From the NCBI GenBank assembly GCA_029556045.1, contig JAKQGS010000061.1, positions 1 to 6,544 on the forward strand: a stretch of 6,544 nucleotides of DNA. The letters run 5' to 3'. The translations under genes were made by a program, and so were the position numbers. This document shows, in pieces, positions 2-6,544 of the stretch. The notes beneath the pieces are model-generated. The model did not search any database and had not been told where the DNA came from. It saw only the letters and a program-made list of their open reading frames with translations. Source of the stretch: Pseudomonadota bacterium. GTDB taxonomy: Bacteria > Bdellovibrionota > Oligoflexia > Oligoflexales > Oligoflexaceae. Within the stretch, counting starts at the first letter, position 1, and each line of letters starts with the position of its first letter.

Positions 2-97
2 CAGAAAGAAACAGACAAGCACCACGACCACCGGGACAACGAGGGAGAAAAGGCTGACACCAGCCGCGAGGCAGCCCGTCGGCGGGGACGGCGATGA
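2..97 (+). CDS. C-terminal tail of an unidentified upstream gene (partial)
   Basis: The second reading frame is open from the window edge to a TGA at 95-97 and gives a 31-residue, strongly charged tail. It has a His/Asp cluster (HHDHRD) followed by an Arg-rich end (REAARRRGRR). The TGA overlaps the epmA ATG as ATGA, the usual layout of translationally coupled genes, which is the main reason to think the frame is real. Basic, low-complexity C-terminal tails are common in RNA-binding proteins such as RNA helicases and RNase E/G-type enzymes, but the visible part is too short and too biased to assign a family. No function is assigned. Confidence 0.5.
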   Translation, partial: QKETDKHHDHRDNEGEKADTSREAARRRGRR

Positions 98-1092
98 CCG
101 CTGCTACGCTCAGGATCTGGCGGGCCCGCCAGGTTCTGCAACTGGCGGTGCATCAATTCTTTAACGACCGTCAATTCCTCTCCATCGACACGCCGATCCT
201 GGTAACCGCTCCCGGCACCGAAGTGTACCTCAACTACTTTGACACCACCTGGGTGGATCACCGCCTGCAGGAACACACCCTTTATCTGCGTTCCAGCCCG
301 GAACTTCATCTTAAACAGGCTCTGGCTATGGGAGCAGACCGGGTCTACCACCTTGGCAAATGCTTTCGCAACGAGGGAGAATACAGCCGGTGGCACCATC
401 CGGAATTTACCATGCTGGAGTGGTATCAAACGGGGATCGGCTATCAGGACTTCATGACCCAGACGGAAGAGTTTCTGCGGTACACCGCTTCTGCGCTGCG
501 ACCATTTCAGGGAGCTTTGTCCTTCGAGATTCCTGCACGGATCCCCCGATTGACGGTGGCGGAGGCCTTCGAGCGATTTACCGGCATTCCCTTGCAGGAT
601 CAGGACACGGATCTTGCCACCAAGGGCCTGGCCAAAGGAATGAAATCCCTGCAACCGCAGGACGATTTTGAGACGGCATTTTTCAAATTGCTTTTGGACT
701 ACGTGGAACCGGGGCTGGCCGCCATGGGCTGCGTCTTTCTCATGGACTATCCAGCGTCCCAGGCCGCTCTGGCCAAAGTGGAAAACGGTGTGGCCCGCCG
801 CTTTGAGCTTTATGTGAATGGGGTGGAGCTGTGTAATGCCTTTCAGGAACTGACCGGTGCCGAGGCCAACCGCCAGCGGATCCAGGAGGCCAACCTGAAG
901 AGAAGTCTATTGGGTAAGCCCATGGTGCCGGACGACGATGATTTTATGGCCGCCATGACCCAGGGCCTGCCGGAGTGCTGCGGCAACGCCCTGGGATTTG
1001 ACCGTTGGCTGAGCCTGCTCACCGGAGCGTCCTTTGATCAGACGATCCCCTTTCGCCGCGGCGGTTGTTTCCAGCGGGAAATTCCCAGTTAG
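94..1092 (+). CDS. epmA: EF-P lysyltransferase EpmA (PoxA/GenX/YjeA), class II LysRS-like
   Basis: A cytoplasmic enzyme of the EpmA family, which attaches (R)-beta-lysine to a conserved lysine of elongation factor P and so helps ribosomes through polyproline stretches. The 332 residues are close to the usual length of about 325. It is a class II lysyl-tRNA synthetase catalytic core without the N-terminal anticodon-binding domain, which separates it from LysRS. Visible signatures are TPILVTAPGTEV (33-44), SSPELHLKQALAMG (67-80), motif 2 FRNEGEYSRWHHPEFTMLEWY (from 91), GVELCNAFQELTG (243-255) and the motif 3 region GNALGFDRW (297-305). The ATG at 94 is preceded by GGGGA with 5-nt spacing and overlaps the upstream stop. 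Neither efp nor epmB is in the window. The family assignment is firm; the beta-lysine donor is inferred from E. coli. Confidence 0.95.
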   Translation: MTAATLRIWRARQVLQLAVHQFFNDRQFLSIDTPILVTAPGTEVYLNYFDTTWVDHRLQEHTLYLRSSPELHLKQALAMGADRVYHLGKCFRNEGEYSRWHHPEFTMLEWYQTGIGYQDFMTQTEEFLRYTASALRPFQGALSFEIPARIPRLTVAEAFERFTGIPLQDQDTDLATKGLAKGMKSLQPQDDFETAFFKLLLDYVEPGLAAMGCVFLMDYPASQAALAKVENGVARRFELYVNGVELCNAFQELTGAEANRQRIQEANLKRSLLGKPMVPDDDDFMAAMTQGLPECCGNALGFDRWLSLLTGASFDQTIPFRRGGCFQREIPS

Positions 1093-1165: not shown

Positions 1166-2371
1166 TCACCTTTTGCACTGAATGTCGGCGATCACAAGTC
1201 CAAATCCCGCCTTATTGGCGAAATTTCCCTGCTCATCAAAAACCACCTGCCGCACACCATCCTGCCAAAACACCGGCTTTGCGGTATCCTTGATCGCTTC
1301 GGAAAAGCCGAAATGGCGGCATAATCCATCGTGATCCGAAGCAGCACTGACTTCCGCCATGCGGGGGCTGTCGATTTCCACCCGAGGTTTTTTGACCAGA
1401 AAGGAGCTTTCACCTTGAGGGGTCATCAAATTAACATCCTTGGCGTCCACCGAAAGGGTAGTGCACATGAGGCGGGCGTATCCCAAACCAAACCCCCGCG
1501 TCCGGACCATTTCACCCGCGGCGTTGATCTCCACATTGGTATCGACTTTTTCCTTCTCAATGCCGCCGACAGCGCTGGCAAATCCCAAAGCGGCGCAGAC
1601 GTCATGCTGGTTGCTATGGTAACTGATGGGATAACCATTCCAGCGTGGTTTCGTCACCAGATTCAATCCTCCGCCCTTTTCCTCCACCAGATTAACCCTT
1701 GGCCAATAGGGGCCGATATCATCCTGACAAAGCAGGGAGGTAATGGCAGTTGTTGTCTTTGCGCCTGCCACACGAGCCACATTGTTGATAACAACCCCCG
1801 CAGCAGCGAAGGAATCCAGGATAGGTTCACCAGGGGCAACCCGGTCGAAACCAAACAGACGGCATACGCCCTGGAGGTCAGAATCGCTGGCGATACCATA
1901 ACGACCGCCCCGCAGGTCATGGAGCATGGGTTTTTGGATCAAGGCCACCTTTTGTGTATTAATGACAAGACGCTCATATCGCCCACCCCGCTCATAAGCA
2001 TCACCGCGGCATCCCAATGCCTCGATTTTTTCGACTCCTTCCTGACGACCACTTAACACTCCCGCACTGTTGATGATGGCTACCAGGGGGGTTTCTCCCT
2101 CATCTCCACCATCCGTCGATGCGGTGCGCAAAGTCGCCGGCACGGCCGCACCATACCCAAATAGGCTGCACACACCATTCAGATCGGAGGAGGCGGCGAC
2201 GGGTCGCTGGGTCACTCCATCGAAAAAACCAGGATTTCCGATCACAACAGTTCCATCATCCGATAGGTTCAGACTGCTAAACTCGGAGCTGGGCAACCGA
2301 AATCCCTCAGCCTGCGCCATGCTGGACAGACCACCAAAAACAAAGACTAAACCTTTTAAAATTCGCATCAT
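1166..2371 (-). CDS. Secreted protein of four two-cysteine repeats (unrecognised family)
   Basis: The family is not recognised. From the ATG at 2371 the protein has 401 residues and starts with a Sec signal peptide (MMRILKGLVFVFGGLSSMAQA, cleavage about residue 21). The rest is four degenerate tandem units, about residues 30-123, 135-217, 225-305 and 312-401. Each has a first cysteine in a motif like [DN]GVCRLFGF (C68, C170, C259, C351) and a second near its end (C121, C215, C303, C399). These eight are the only cysteines, so one disulfide per unit is likely. The open frame extends upstream to 2506, but the earlier part crosses the dyad region and lacks a signal peptide. GAGAGGGG just before ATGATG supports 2371 (or 2368). 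The gene is divergent from the HTH regulator and paralogous to the gene at 3475-4389. Periplasmic or extracellular location is inferred. No catalytic motif or membrane anchor is seen. Confidence 0.85.
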   Translation of the reverse strand: MMRILKGLVFVFGGLSSMAQAEGFRLPSSEFSSLNLSDDGTVVIGNPGFFDGVTQRPVAASSDLNGVCSLFGYGAAVPATLRTASTDGGDEGETPLVAIINSAGVLSGRQEGVEKIEALGCRGDAYERGGRYERLVINTQKVALIQKPMLHDLRGGRYGIASDSDLQGVCRLFGFDRVAPGEPILDSFAAAGVVINNVARVAGAKTTTAITSLLCQDDIGPYWPRVNLVEEKGGGLNLVTKPRWNGYPISYHSNQHDVCAALGFASAVGGIEKEKVDTNVEINAAGEMVRTRGFGLGYARLMCTTLSVDAKDVNLMTPQGESSFLVKKPRVEIDSPRMAEVSAASDHDGLCRHFGFSEAIKDTAKPVFWQDGVRQVVFDEQGNFANKAGFGLVIADIQCKR

Positions 2372-2414
2372 GACGCCCCTCTCGGAGGTAGAATAAGTTG
2401 ATAGCGTTCGACCC

Positions 2415-2443
2415 TTTATACCCCCGTCTTTCCTGCATTCCCA
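2415..2443 (-). promoter_or_regulatory. Possible sigma70-like promoter of the four-repeat protein gene
   Basis: On the minus strand TATAAA (2420-2415) is a good -10 match. With a 17-nt spacer the -35 position holds TGGGAA (2443-2438), which matches TTGACA at only three of six positions. A start point here would give a leader of about 35-40 nt before the ATG at 2371 and would put the shared dyads about 60-110 nt upstream, a position typical of an activator. This is a by-eye call with a weak -35. Confidence 0.3.
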
Positions 2444-2467
2444 TAGATAATTGACCAAAACACCACA

Positions 2468-2515
2468 TTGCTCACCGTGGTGATGACTGGGCGAATTTTT
2501 CACCACGATGGTGGT
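2468..2515. promoter_or_regulatory. Two-part dyad, candidate operator in the divergent region (copy A)
   Basis: Two dyads lie about three helical turns apart between the four-repeat protein gene and the regulator. The first is TCACC-GT-GGTGA (2472-2483). The second is ACCAC-GATG-GTGGT (2502-2515), within TCACCACGATGG (2500-2511). The block TTGCTCACCGTGGTGATGA (2468-2486) recurs with two mismatches on the minus strand at 4552-4534, and TCACCACGATGG recurs with one mismatch at 4517-4506. Copy A lies 96 nt from the ATG of the four-repeat gene and 122 nt from the regulator ATG. The symmetry and repetition are seen directly; binding by the adjacent HTH protein is inferred. Confidence 0.6.
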
Positions 2516-2568
2516 TTATTTTAGCGAAAAGTCCGATAGGCTGATTGATAGGGCCTCCGGGTTCTTTG

Positions 2569-2598
2569 CACGGTCTGAGAAACCGTGGTAAGGCCACG
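2569..2598 (+). promoter_or_regulatory. Overlapping alternative hairpins upstream of the regulator start
   Basis: CACGGT (2569-2574) can pair with ACCGTG (2582-2587) across a 7-nt loop. The CGTGG inside that second arm (2584-2588) can instead pair with CCACG (2594-2598) across a 5-nt loop, so the two stems exclude each other. The block also repeats ACCGTGGT and CCACGAT, words from the dyads at 2472-2511, so it could be a third, DNA-level binding site rather than an RNA switch. Both stems are short; function is uncertain. Confidence 0.3.
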
Positions 2599-2633
2599 AT
2601 TCTCGAGTGGACTGTAAAATGTGAGTGAGGAAA

Positions 2634-3395
2634 ATGACCCAGCTGTCTTTGGTGCCATACCTACAGGAGAAAATCGCCGCCTATGTCAGCGCCAAGCGCT
2701 TTCATAGCCTCATGACGCTCTCAACCAAATCTGGGGTTCCCTATAACACGGTTCGTCGCTTGGCTAACGGTCAGGTGGACAAACCCACGCTGGAAACCGT
2801 TTTGGCCATCCTCAACGTCGTGGAGTCGCGAGCTAACCTGGTCAAAACCGTGGAGCGGTTTTTCCCGGGTATCGGCAACCTGATAGCCAGCGTGCATACT
2901 GCCACAGGATCGACCGCAATCACTGATGCCATGGTGGATATGATGAGTGAGGATCAGGTATCCTTTCGCATATACTCACTGGCAGGTACCCGCGTCGGTA
3001 CCACCCGTGAAGATGTTCGTCAATTATTTGGAGAGGATGGTCTGAACAAGCTGGCAGCCCTCGTGGAACAAGGTATGGTGGTCGACAATGGCAAGGGTGT
3101 GCTGCATACACCAGACTTGGAATATTCCACCGTGAACCCTCACGCGATGCTGCGCAAAATGCGCCACTGTCTCGATTTTTTTGACAAGTCTCTGATTGGC
3201 ACCGATGCGGCAGCCCTGGCCATTCAGACCGAAGCCGTGAATGTGGAAGGACTCAAAGCCCTGAGACAGGCGGCGCGAGATTTTCATGTGCGCCTCTCCG
3301 AAATTAAAAAGGATCCTCGTTACCAGGGAGACATCCCCTTTTATGCAATACTTTGCATTGGCCTCCTCGACTCCCGGAACTTTCGTCCGGAATAA
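2634..3395 (+). CDS. HTH transcriptional regulator, XRE-like N-terminus with TIGR02147/DUF4423-like C-terminus
   Basis: A predicted cytoplasmic DNA-binding regulator of 253 residues. A helix-turn-helix is clear at about residues 28-62: LSTKSGVPYNTVRRLANGQ followed by KPTLETVLAILNVV, the Cro/C1-type layout. The C-terminal region (about 155-245), with HAMLRKM, then ALRQAARDFHVRLSEIKKD and a hydrophobic YAILCIGLL end, resembles the TIGR02147/DUF4423 regulators expanded in Bdellovibrio and Fibrobacter. That resemblance is from memory and moderate. ATG 2634 is chosen because GTGAGTGAGG lies just before it; a GTG at 2625 would add three residues but has no clear ribosome binding site. It is divergent from one repeat-protein gene and convergent with its paralogue, and the shared dyads sit upstream of all three. 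Control of both paralogues and of itself is therefore inferred. No effector-binding motif was recognised. Confidence 0.82.
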   Translation: MTQLSLVPYLQEKIAAYVSAKRFHSLMTLSTKSGVPYNTVRRLANGQVDKPTLETVLAILNVVESRANLVKTVERFFPGIGNLIASVHTATGSTAITDAMVDMMSEDQVSFRIYSLAGTRVGTTREDVRQLFGEDGLNKLAALVEQGMVVDNGKGVLHTPDLEYSTVNPHAMLRKMRHCLDFFDKSLIGTDAAALAIQTEAVNVEGLKALRQAARDFHVRLSEIKKDPRYQGDIPFYAILCIGLLDSRNFRPE

Positions 3396-3411
3396 TCCCT
3401 TCATTAATTGC

Positions 3412-3441
3412 AAAAACCCCGGAGGTTTTTGGCCTCCGGGG
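3412..3441 (-). terminator. Intrinsic terminator of the three-repeat protein gene
   Basis: Read on the minus strand, a perfect 9-bp GC-rich stem, CCCCGGAGG (3441-3433) with CCTCCGGGG (3425-3417), closes a 7-nt loop (CCAAAAA) and is followed directly by TTTTT (3416-3412). It lies 34 nt beyond the stop codon of the gene at 3475-4389. On the plus strand the same hairpin has no T-run after it, so it is at best a weak terminator for the convergent regulator. Confidence 0.92.
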
Positions 3442-3474
3442 CATGATCGGAAAAGGTTGAACCACCCAGCTGCA

Positions 3475-4389
3475 TCAGCGGGCGCATTCAACCATTGAAT
3501 AACCAATACCAAAATCGCGAGTATCAACAACCGCTCCGCTATCGTTCAGTTCCACATTCTTTCCAACCCGGGTATTGCTGTGATTGGTGGCACCACCTTC
3601 ATATCCAAATGCCATACAAACGGCATCTGCACCGCTGTGACGGCTAACCGGCAGCCCGTTTACCAGGGGGTTAACGATACGAGCCTGCCCATTCGGCAAC
3701 TCTACAATCTCAGTCTTCGGAGCCGGTGCCTCGATCGGTGTACCATTGTCACGGCAGGCAATGGTCCAAATAGCCGTGCCATTGGTGTTGACGCGAGCAT
3801 ACTTACCGGCTTCGCTGATAACGACCGCGCGGTCATCGTCGTTTTCGCCGTTGTGGGCGGACTTGGTTTGCAGGCTTCCCTCGATGAAAGAACCGAAACC
3901 ATACATTTTGCACACGCCGTTTTCACTGGAATGGAAAGACAGGGGTAGAGTTTCGCCACCACTACGGTAGAACGGATCGGATATCACCACCGAGCCGTCG
4001 TCACTGCGGGAAATTCCGCCAAAATCGCGGCTGGGAGCCGAGGTTTCACCGGTCAGGCAGCTGATACGGTAGATGTGGCTGCGGGTATCAAACCCAGCCA
4101 TGGTGCCTGAGCTGCTGATCCGCACGCGCTCGGCATCAACATCTCTGCCGCTGCCGGAATCGGTAGAAACACTATCCCAAACCGAGCTGGGAAAACCATA
4201 AAGGCGGCATACACCGTCATAATCGGAATGTTCGGAAAGGCCATAGTTCACGCCACTATATTGAAAACGAGGCTGCACAATGGTCACCGACCCATCAGTA
4301 TTGCGGGTCAGAGACCCATAGTTGGTGCTCGCTGCCAAAGCGGAACCCGCCGATAACATAACAAAACTCGCCAATACCAAAACTTTCAT
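3475..4389 (-). CDS. Secreted protein of three two-cysteine repeats, paralogue of the four-repeat protein
   Basis: The family is not recognised. The protein has 304 residues with a clean Sec signal peptide (MKVLVLASFVMLSAGSALA, cleavage after residue 19). Three tandem units follow, about 22-115, 122-214 and 226-304. A typical unit starts DGSVVIxxP, continues SxHSxxxGVCRLYGF, then a variable acidic stretch (SGRDVDAE, NGENDDDRA), then a VxIS..G strand and a closing cysteine. The only cysteines are six: 61/111, 160/212 and 258/302, two per unit. The last unit (NGLPVSRHS to FGIGYSMVEC) matches the third unit of the paralogue better than its own neighbours. The ATG at 4389 has GGAGG 4 nt upstream. 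A strong terminator follows the gene and the shared dyads lie 116 nt before it. Export to periplasm or exterior is inferred; no enzyme motif is seen. Confidence 0.9.
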   Translation of the reverse strand: MKVLVLASFVMLSAGSALAASTNYGSLTRNTDGSVTIVQPRFQYSGVNYGLSEHSDYDGVCRLYGFPSSVWDSVSTDSGSGRDVDAERVRISSSGTMAGFDTRSHIYRISCLTGETSAPSRDFGGISRSDDGSVVISDPFYRSGGETLPLSFHSSENGVCKMYGFGSFIEGSLQTKSAHNGENDDDRAVVISEAGKYARVNTNGTAIWTIACRDNGTPIEAPAPKTEIVELPNGQARIVNPLVNGLPVSRHSGADAVCMAFGYEGGATNHSNTRVGKNVELNDSGAVVDTRDFGIGYSMVECAR

Positions 4390-4505: not shown

Positions 4506-4552
4506 CCATCATGGTGATTTTGCCACCCCAAAATCATCATCATGGTGAGCAA
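4506..4552. promoter_or_regulatory. Two-part dyad, candidate operator upstream of the three-repeat gene (copy B)
   Basis: Read on the minus strand, TTGCTCACCATGATGATGA (4552-4534) matches copy A at 17 of 19 bases, and TCACCATGATGG (4517-4506) matches at 11 of 12. The two TCACC starts are 31 nt apart here and 28 nt in copy A. The last site base is 116 nt from the ATG at 4389, close to the 122 nt between copy A and the regulator ATG in the same relative orientation. The rest of 4390-4505 holds no gene that I can support. Copy B abuts the stop codon of the DUF1501 pseudogene. Confidence 0.58.
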
Positions 4553-4553
4553 G

Positions 4554-5788
4554 TCAAAGCTTCAATAGCTGTTCAACTACCGGTGCAACGACGGTATTGC
4601 GATCGATTTTCAAAGCATTACCCGCAAGCAGATCAACCCCCGTGCTCCGAGAGAAAAGACTATAGACGGTATTGATCACCGAAGGGGCGTTCAAATAGTC
4701 ATGAATACTATAGGAATTTGGCACCACGGGTTTAGACAATCCGGTGGCAAAGTCAAATGGACGCCCCATACACTTCAGCCGATCCGGATCCAACGCCAGG
4801 TGGGCCGCGGATAGGTTTTCTGTCTCGGACATAAAGTCTGAGGATCCGATCACCATATCACCCTGAATGCCTTTACCTGCAAAAATAAACGAATTATTGA
4901 GAGGGTTGTGGTCGGTTCCTGTTGCATCAATGGGTAGTTGCTGCTGCCGCATGGTCCGGGAAAACTCTGACGCCACCATCAAGGTTGTCAGATCAAAAAA
5001 ACTGCGTTTATCATCGTAAGGAGTGTCTTTTAATGTCTGTAAAATAGCCGCGATATCCGCGCTGAGCTTGGTGAACTCTTCAGATTGCTCCTTGGCATCA
5101 TCCGGTGAATGATTGTCAAAATCTCCATCGTAGCTGATCACGGATGAACGGGTGATACCATTCCGGAAATACTCCAGCGACAATTTCAACTGGGCCACAG
5201 CAGAATTATCCTCATTGAGAATGTCGTCTTCGATGCGTGCCTCCTTCATCTTCCGCGCTAAATCACCGTACTGACCCAATGAAGAGGTCAGCTGCTCAGC
5301 GCCGCGGCTTACCTTACCTAAATTTGCTGCGGCCAACTCTCGATTTCATTGCACCAGAAACTGCGGGGATTTTTCCATCAATGTTTGGGGACTCGGCACG
5401 GTGATTTTTTGGGATAGTCCTTTGGCATCCCGACCGTTGATCGTGACACTGGCACTCCCATTACTGACATCAAAACCAAAAACCTGGCCAATCAAAGTGT
5501 CGATGGGCGTTATAGTTTTGCCCGCATTTAAATGGGGTACAAAAGACGCCCGCATAATTCTGAATCAGACCTGTTGCTGTCATGCTCCGCGGACGTGCAT
5601 CAAAGAGGTAAGATATCCGTCCCTCCCTCCTACAGAACCATAAGAAAAAATGTGGGTCCCCTGCCGAATCTTTAGCCATAGCCAAATTGGGCCATGGTAA
5701 CGATAAGCCCCCCTAAACCCGCAAAAGCCCCTTTGAGGAAAAAACGACGTGAGAAAGAATCCGGAGCAAGGGATTGGTCGTCGGCAAT
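4554..5788 (-). pseudogene. Decayed DUF1501 (Tat-exported, sulfatase-like) protein gene
   Basis: The pieces lie in order on one strand. A twin-arginine signal (SRRFFLKGAFAGLGGL, about 5752-5705) runs into a stop. A second frame carries KDSAGDPHFFLWF and then SYLFDARPRSMTATGLIQNY. A third carries SFVPHLNAGKTITPIDTLIG and NGRDAKGL, ended by TGA at 5346-5348. The same frame then stays open for over 260 codons to 4554, with DFDNHS (about 5123), ASEFSRTM (about 4973), TGTDHNPLNNS (about 4919) and GKGIQGDMVIGSSD, all typical of DUF1501. The frame of the Tat signal begins at an ATT (5786-5788) after AGGTAAGG, where an ATG would be expected. Judged from the family, a segment also seems missing between QNY and SFVPHLN. 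The intact ancestor would have been an exported protein of unknown enzymatic role. Intact neighbours argue against plain sequencing error. Confidence 0.85.
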
Positions 5789-5891: not shown

Positions 5892-5951
5892 CTTTGAAAA
5901 GAAAATGCCTAGTTTCTCGCCATCGCGTCAGGTGCTAGGTTTTCTTCAAAG
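5892..5951. repeat. Long imperfect inverted repeat spanning the hepT stop codon
   Basis: Left arm CTTTGAAAAGAAAATGCCTAG (from 5892) pairs with right arm CTAGGTTTTCTTCAAAG (5935-5951). All 17 right-arm bases pair, with two 2-nt bulges on the left arm. The 22-nt loop (5913-5934) can itself form a small GCG/CGC stem. The right arm contains the hepT stop codon. The surrounding gap (5789-5934) holds no gene that I can support and is AT-rich. It may act as a 3' mRNA hairpin or weak terminator for mntA-hepT. There is no clean T-run after the stem. Confidence 0.5.
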
Positions 5952-6330
5952 TAGTTTTGTCACCAAAAATTCTGGCATCCAGAGAGGTTATTTCTTTAGC
6001 TGCAGCTTCATTTAGAAATTGCAAAAATGAAGGCAATTCAACACTAACGGTATGCCAGACAGTTTTGAGATTAATGTCGTGGTAGGCATGAATTAAATGA
6101 TTACGCATCCCGACGATTTTTGACCAGGGTACCTGTCCATTAGTTTTCTTAAATTCATCACTCAGTTTGCCAGACGCCTCGCCAATGATTGCCAATTGAT
6201 GGCAAGTCGCGAACTGAGTTTTTTTGTCCGCTGCGAAGTCGTCATAACTCATGCCGTTGGTAAAAATTCGGATATTTTCGCCTGCATGTAAAATATCTAT
6301 CAGGAGCGCATTGTCGTCACGCCGCGACAT
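5935..6330 (-). CDS. hepT: HepT-like HEPN-domain RNase toxin (DUF86 family)
   Basis: A toxin component of the HepT/MntA type II/VII-like systems: a small all-helical HEPN RNase whose activity is blocked when its partner MntA AMPylates a tyrosine near the active site. The 131 residues match the usual length of about 130-140. The diagnostic RX4HXY motif is intact as RNHLIHAY (R76, H81, Y83), followed by DINLKTVW, and Y83 is the expected modification site. The motif lies in the usual C-terminal half after GEASGKLS (50-57). The start is placed at ATG 6330. The frame continues upstream to 6414 but would then overlap mntA by about 100 nt and add an atypical basic leader. It overlaps the mntA stop by 14 nt, so coupled translation is likely. 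The catalytic residues look complete; activity is inferred from the family. Confidence 0.88.
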   Translation of the reverse strand: MSRRDDNALLIDILHAGENIRIFTNGMSYDDFAADKKTQFATCHQLAIIGEASGKLSDEFKKTNGQVPWSKIVGMRNHLIHAYHDINLKTVWHTVSVELPSFLQFLNEAAAKEITSLDARIFGDKTTLKKT

Positions 6331-6544
6331 ACAGCACCTGCGCAGTTGTGAGGATTTCTCGCTTACGAATCCAGTTATGAGATTCCTCAATCGCCTCTTT
6401 ACTGACGAGATCAACTTTGCAGCTAAATATTTCGGACAATTCTTGCTCTATTCCAGCGAACTCGATCAAACCGACGGTTCTCCCGGCAGCAAAGGTCACG
6501 AGCAAATCGATGTCACTCGTGTCAGGTTTGAAATCCTTCAGTAG
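6317..6544 (-). CDS. mntA: MntA-like minimal nucleotidyltransferase antitoxin (5' end off window)
   Basis: The frame is open from the window edge to TGA at 6317-6319 and gives the last 75 residues of a MntA-like antitoxin, an enzyme that transfers AMP from ATP onto HepT. SDIDLLVTF near the visible start is the metal-binding DxD part of the GSx10DxD nucleotidyltransferase signature; the GS part should lie just beyond the window. The middle, FAGIEQELSEIFSCKVDLVSKEAI, matches the usual helix followed by the KVDLV strand, which carries the third acidic residue. The end, WIRKREILTTAQVLYVAA, replaces the more common RD-IRREA-ILYE type ending. An internal TTG at 6505 is not the true start because the DxD motif lies upstream of it. 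It precedes hepT and overlaps it by 14 nt. Confidence 0.85.
   Translation of the reverse strand, partial: LLKDFKPDTSDIDLLVTFAAGRTVGLIEFAGIEQELSEIFSCKVDLVSKEAIEESHNWIRKREILTTAQVLYVAA

Follow-up and report, generated by a model that had tools for sequence, protein, structure and literature searches.

The stretch of DNA analysed here (the window) comprises 6,544 nucleotides, positions 1 to 6,544 of contig JAKQGS010000061.1 (assembly GCA_029556045.1), from a member of Oligoflexaceae in the phylum Bdellovibrionota. It contains two open reading frames (ORFs), here called A and B, which lie on the minus strand and flank a plus-strand gene for a helix-turn-helix (HTH) regulator. Both proteins are built from a two-cysteine repeat unit; the unit represents a bacterial domain family that has no label in Pfam or NCBIfam, and its predicted fold resembles the scavenger receptor cysteine-rich (SRCR) domain. 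In a previous sequence-only reading the interval 1166-4389 had been described as two paralogous genes; both ORFs are real, but the interval also holds the regulator gene (2625-3395, +), which had not been mentioned. The two genes and their units are as follows.

1166..2371, minus strand: gene A, signal-like N-terminus and four units, 401 amino acids (aa)
2006..2284, minus strand: A unit 1 (Cys68, Cys121)
1724..1972, minus strand: A unit 2 (Cys170, Cys215)
1460..1705, minus strand: A unit 3 (Cys259, Cys303)
1172..1429, minus strand: A unit 4 (Cys351, Cys399), no counterpart in B
3475..4389, minus strand: gene B, signal-like N-terminus and three units, 304 aa
4054..4323, minus strand: B unit 1 (Cys61, Cys111), modelled singly, SRCR-like predicted fold
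3751..4020, minus strand: B unit 2 (Cys160, Cys212)
3481..3726, minus strand: B unit 3 (Cys258, Cys302), modelled with one strand fewer and without an SRCR row of its own

Both A and B open with a Sec-type signal that ends in A-x-A and has no lipobox cysteine (judged by eye), and beyond it they consist of units only, with no other domain. The most likely start of A is the ATG at 2371 (401 aa) rather than the GTG at 2506, because the former is common to its full-length relatives. The two proteins are about 28% identical and their units align as 1-1, 2-2 and 3-3, the fourth, terminal unit being found only in A. Eight cysteines are present in mature A (68, 121, 170, 215, 259, 303, 351 and 399; spacings 53, 45, 44 and 48) and six in mature B (61, 111, 160, 212, 258 and 302; spacings 50, 52 and 44). 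Thus, the earlier description of a Sec signal followed only by tandem units, four in one protein and three in the other, agreed with both ORFs, and so did the placing of all 14 mature cysteines at two fixed positions per unit, 44-53 residues apart. The unit length of about 90-100 residues proposed at that time has to be revised to 82-93 residues as cut (90, 90, 82, 93, 83, 82 and 86), compared with 90-110 residues for an SRCR domain. Scored against a profile of the remaining six, each of the seven window units reached 34.0-67.3 bits, whereas the best score in the shuffle control (500 shuffles per unit) was 9.9 bits.

A search of about 5.8 billion proteins for full-length relatives gave two with B, 91 and 64% identical to it, and, apart from A itself, three with A, at 90, 55 and 52% identity. 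They have a single assembly source and all cysteines are kept. One relative of B (P0001) and one of A (P0004) both list 9858 bases as the length of their longest contig, so that the two genes may well remain a pair there. No match was found in plasmid records searched with B, none of the 69 pattern matches in viral contigs encoded a relative, and two phage matches (E 0.2 and 1) were taken as chance.

Distribution of the unit in bacteria

A first scan of one genome per species, for which patterns had been derived from seven full-length proteins, yielded 54 matches; three of them encode relatives and belong to genomes of an Oligoflexia, a Bacteriovoracaceae and a Bdellovibrionales member. Units in all three genomes were also found by a profile made from the window family alone (best E 6.7e-16). 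At E <= 1e-4, the unit was detected in 32 of 368 genomes of one phylum, by their titles probably Bdellovibrionota, with one profile (A5) and in 42 with a wider one (A6), both counts including genomes that gave units to the alignments. The module is therefore not private to the A/B pair and is spread through one bacterial phylum. In the iterated alignment (69 rows, four of them duplicates) the near-invariant positions were a proline (67/69), the helix cysteine (67/68), a glycine (64/68) and the last cysteine (65/66), and the A6 rows contained two cysteines in 39 of 54 cases and three in 15.

Most unit-bearing ORFs had one unit (37 of 55), 17 had two and one had three. A signal-like start was recognised by a crude rule in 43 of the 55; some of those without it are cut ORFs, and two members of the set (L032 and L070) are one gene cut differently. 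Fusion partners above cut-off were MORN repeats and ankyrin repeats; a match to Lcl_C was below cut-off, and one protein (L001) has a coiled-coil-like tail supported by weak matches. In three ORFs (L016:1501-2643, L028:1495-2640 and L075:1889-3091) a single unit is preceded by an N-terminal part of some 280 residues with a G.GIY(L/I)AEDP..SSIY motif. We take this part to recall ADP-ribosyltransferases, a likeness that three family scans and one PDB search did not support: no Pfam family was above cut-off for it, and nothing meaningful was found for L075 in the PDB. At L013:1363-2980 there are tandem overlapping ORFs with two and three units, possibly one frameshifted five-unit gene or two genes. 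A protein search with a two-unit profile returned eight proteins at E <= 0.001, including one of the window family; three carried organism names, namely a Bdellovibrionales, a Bacteriovoracaceae and a record named Xanthomonadaceae. The sequence of this last record (P0008) is that of an ORF (L031) whose genome is in the Bdellovibrionota set, and its public name may be wrong.

Searches of known families gave no name for the unit. Pfam contained no family for A or B at E <= 1, and NCBIfam none for B and none at cut-off for A, whose match at E 0.12 was far below cut-off and was taken as chance. When ten related proteins were scanned with Pfam, no family reached cut-off within the unit, and when 54 single units were scanned, no match was common to two units (best E 0.012) and SRCR was absent from the 13 families listed; the weak matches within units stayed below cut-off throughout and were regarded as chance hits. 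Among PDB sequences, neither B nor the A5 unit profile had a match at E <= 10. This outcome was expected by the sequence-only reading, which had recognised no named domain and had proposed the Pfam search. With respect to these databases its view still stands, but the predicted structure of the unit does resemble a described domain.

Predicted fold of the unit

SRCR domains are animal immune and matrix modules with six to eight cysteines (excerpts of PMC4491621, PMC10855680 and PMC4448552), and the definition of the superfamily asks for three or four disulfides made by six or eight cysteines (excerpt of PMC4491621). The model of full-length B divides into three repeated units without a stalk, as anticipated when structure prediction was first suggested as a check. 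When the predicted B unit 1 was compared with a fold library, the first 40 rows were all SRCR and were followed by a sharp drop, with the alignment spanning the whole unit; the best E in a viral fold library was only 0.38. The unit model has one helix cradled by a sheet from both chain ends, the arrangement by which SRCR folds are recognised. On the basis of this model, the unit quite probably has an SRCR-like fold.

The modelled cysteine positions are in keeping with such a fold. In the model of B unit 1, Cys39 is within helix 35-41 and Cys89 within strand 83-89, and in type A SRCR domains the C3-C8 disulfide runs from the helix cysteine to the C-terminal cysteine (excerpt of PMC11058800, where the pair numbering is inconsistent). 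The two cysteines of the unit are thus predicted to occupy the helix and last-strand elements joined by C3-C8, the other SRCR cysteines being missing, and the unit would represent a reduced, one-disulfide form of the SRCR fold. The previous suggestion of a disulfide-stabilised, mostly beta module strung in varying number was right about the two cysteines, the mostly beta character and the variable copy number, but the fold is probably not an unknown one.

Sequence comparison was less favourable. Each unit of A and B has two cysteines instead of six or eight, and the Pfam SRCR model PF00530 was found in none of the 54 units and above cut-off in none of the 368 genomes. Weak matches to canonical SRCR occurred in three of these genomes, none over cut-off and all with internal stop codons, and in none of 14 control genomes. 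Alignment of the unit profile with seven CD163 domains by hhalign gave a probability of 1.45% and a score of 13.67, which was equalled by 7 of 200 column permutations (reversed-profile control, 11.34). After MARCO and consensus sequences had been added, the values were 8.43% and 17.81, equalled by 1 of 300 permutations. Both alignments covered only 20-21 columns, with the helix cysteines paired in each. Because the cysteine count and the Pfam result do not agree with SRCR and the profile comparison gives low probabilities, we keep our claim to an SRCR-like predicted fold, not family membership. No paper on SRCR domains in bacteria was among those listed by searches of an open-licence library.

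Regulator and neighbouring genes

Three further features may concern the expression of A and B.

2625..3395, plus strand: HTH regulator, 256 aa, divergent from A, HTH_3 match below cut-off
2473..2510: two CAYCRTGGTGA copies, inverted (2473-2483 plus, 2500-2510 minus), 102-139 base pairs (bp) upstream of A
4507..4548: two CAYCRTGGTGA copies, direct (4507-4517 plus, 4538-4548 plus), 31 bp apart, 118-159 bp upstream of B

The pattern occurs exactly four times in the window, compared with 0.01 expected from shuffles, a value that flatters the motif since the pattern was drawn from these same sites. Judging by its position and the shared motif, the regulator may control both A and B. Its relatives were found in 101 of the 368 genomes, and two relatives that were tested pass the HTH_3 cut-off; no NCBIfam model reaches cut-off for the regulator itself. 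When unit-bearing loci, mostly with short flanks, were searched by tblastn at E <= 0.01, nothing was found for the regulator or for EpmA.

The gene that looks like epmA is a class II tRNA-synthetase-like gene at 94-1092 (+). Its product is at most 43% identical to the listed matches from the 368 genomes and at most 39% among the best 10 of 112 plasmid records. By these values the host lineage would lie far from the ones covered, and the units and the regulator suggest Bdellovibrionota. On the other side of the pair, a DUF1501 gene at 4554-5555 (-) looks broken: ORF 4554-5336 matches only the C-terminal part (profile 250-342 of 390), and an in-frame TGA at 5346-5348 splits it from ORF 5346-5555 (-). 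The interval 5935-6544 (-) holds a HepT-like RNase gene (PF01934, E 3e-25) and, overlapping with it, an ORF that runs off the right end of the window and has, by eye, the appearance of the nucleotidyltransferase partner MntA.

Possible function and relation to known systems

The export-type signal and the immune-receptor-like predicted fold suggest that A and B are likely exported binding proteins. We propose multivalent binding because arrays of SRCR domains have a binding role (excerpts of PMC7043408 and PMC4491621), because A and B contain no catalytic or anchoring part, and because there is a precedent in Bdellovibrio bacteriovorus, whose MAT surface fibres carry animal-type, TNF-like folds as binding tips (excerpt of PMC10769870). 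SRCR domains also use a cation-binding acidic site for ligands (excerpt of PMC7043408). A and B would then be exported multivalent proteins of one-disulfide SRCR-fold modules that bind surfaces or polymers outside the cell, a reading to which we give an even chance. Sec export would carry them to the periplasm, where one disulfide per unit would close, and flexible linkers might string the modules together like beads. Binding that is weak at a single site could sum across the modules, the fourth unit of A altering valency, and the intergenic HTH regulator would govern both genes through the shared pairs of operator-like motifs. The mechanism taken as a whole appears about equally likely to be right or wrong.

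Several other explanations were considered. The unit, though SRCR-like in fold, could serve the cell envelope or the matrix as a structural or spacer element that has no specific ligand, since units are found in varied settings (singly, in tandem arrays, or next to MORN, ankyrin and coiled-coil-like parts), as spacers would be, and no set of binding residues is conserved beyond the proline, the glycine and the two cysteines. However, neither an anchor nor a stalk is present in A and B, and the unit surfaces in them are strongly diverged while the core is kept, so that this appears rather unlikely. That the likeness to SRCR reflects no more than a frequent way of combining a small sheet with one helix, and that the module has an independent origin and a working that could not be read from SRCR, seems unlikely in view of the 40 SRCR rows before other folds, the sharp drop after them, the whole-unit alignment, and the cysteines placed in helix and last strand as in C3-C8.

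It is also conceivable that the units serve to target exported effectors or enzymes, with A and B as stand-alone relatives blocking or competing at the same target. Here the three proteins in which a unit follows the part presumably recalling ADP-ribosyltransferases would fit, but the searches with that part were negative and the other proteins were seen without it, and we consider this very improbable. Finally, the rarity of full-length relatives, their one assembly source and the broken DUF1501 gene nearby might indicate that in this lineage A and B have lost their function and are decaying. This is hard to believe, considering that two proteins with so low an identity have retained every cysteine and the order of units, which is also true of their relatives at 52-91% identity.

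These findings name a domain in a phylum with many bacterial predators, and little is known of how these recognise other cells. A widespread bacterial module that shares the predicted SRCR fold but has the C3-C8 pair alone would point to the disulfide that the fold cannot do without, and could provide simple SRCR versions for production in E. coli. It would also raise the question of one or two origins of the fold; with a predicted fold that looks like a reduced SRCR, common descent with the animal domain is an interesting question. A true prokaryotic scavenger-receptor branch, in which tandem or fused one-disulfide proto-SRCR modules serve predatory or surface-living bacteria in recognising other cells, is a doubtful proposition at present. 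If true, the fold that serves animal immune receptors in binding bacteria would be older than animals and would have been used by bacteria against bacteria.

Compared with the SRCR superfamily (CD163, CD5, CD6, MARCO, DMBT1 and enteropeptidase), the units of A and B share the predicted fold over their whole length, the VC(R/K) motif in the helix, cysteines in the helix and the last strand, and tandem arrays, whereas they are bacterial, have two cysteines in 82-93 residues instead of six or eight, and show no Pfam SRCR match or significant profile match. The unlabelled two-cysteine proteins of Bdellovibrionota (L001, L011, L013 and others) have the same unit by profile but, unlike A and B, mostly one or two copies, some of them fused to MORN, ankyrin or coiled-coil-like parts. 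The MAT adhesive fibres of B. bacteriovorus are trimeric with a beta-helical stalk, whereas A and B have neither a stalk nor another fibre part; what they appear to have in common is export, the same phylum and the use of animal-type folds, by which a similar function may be supposed.
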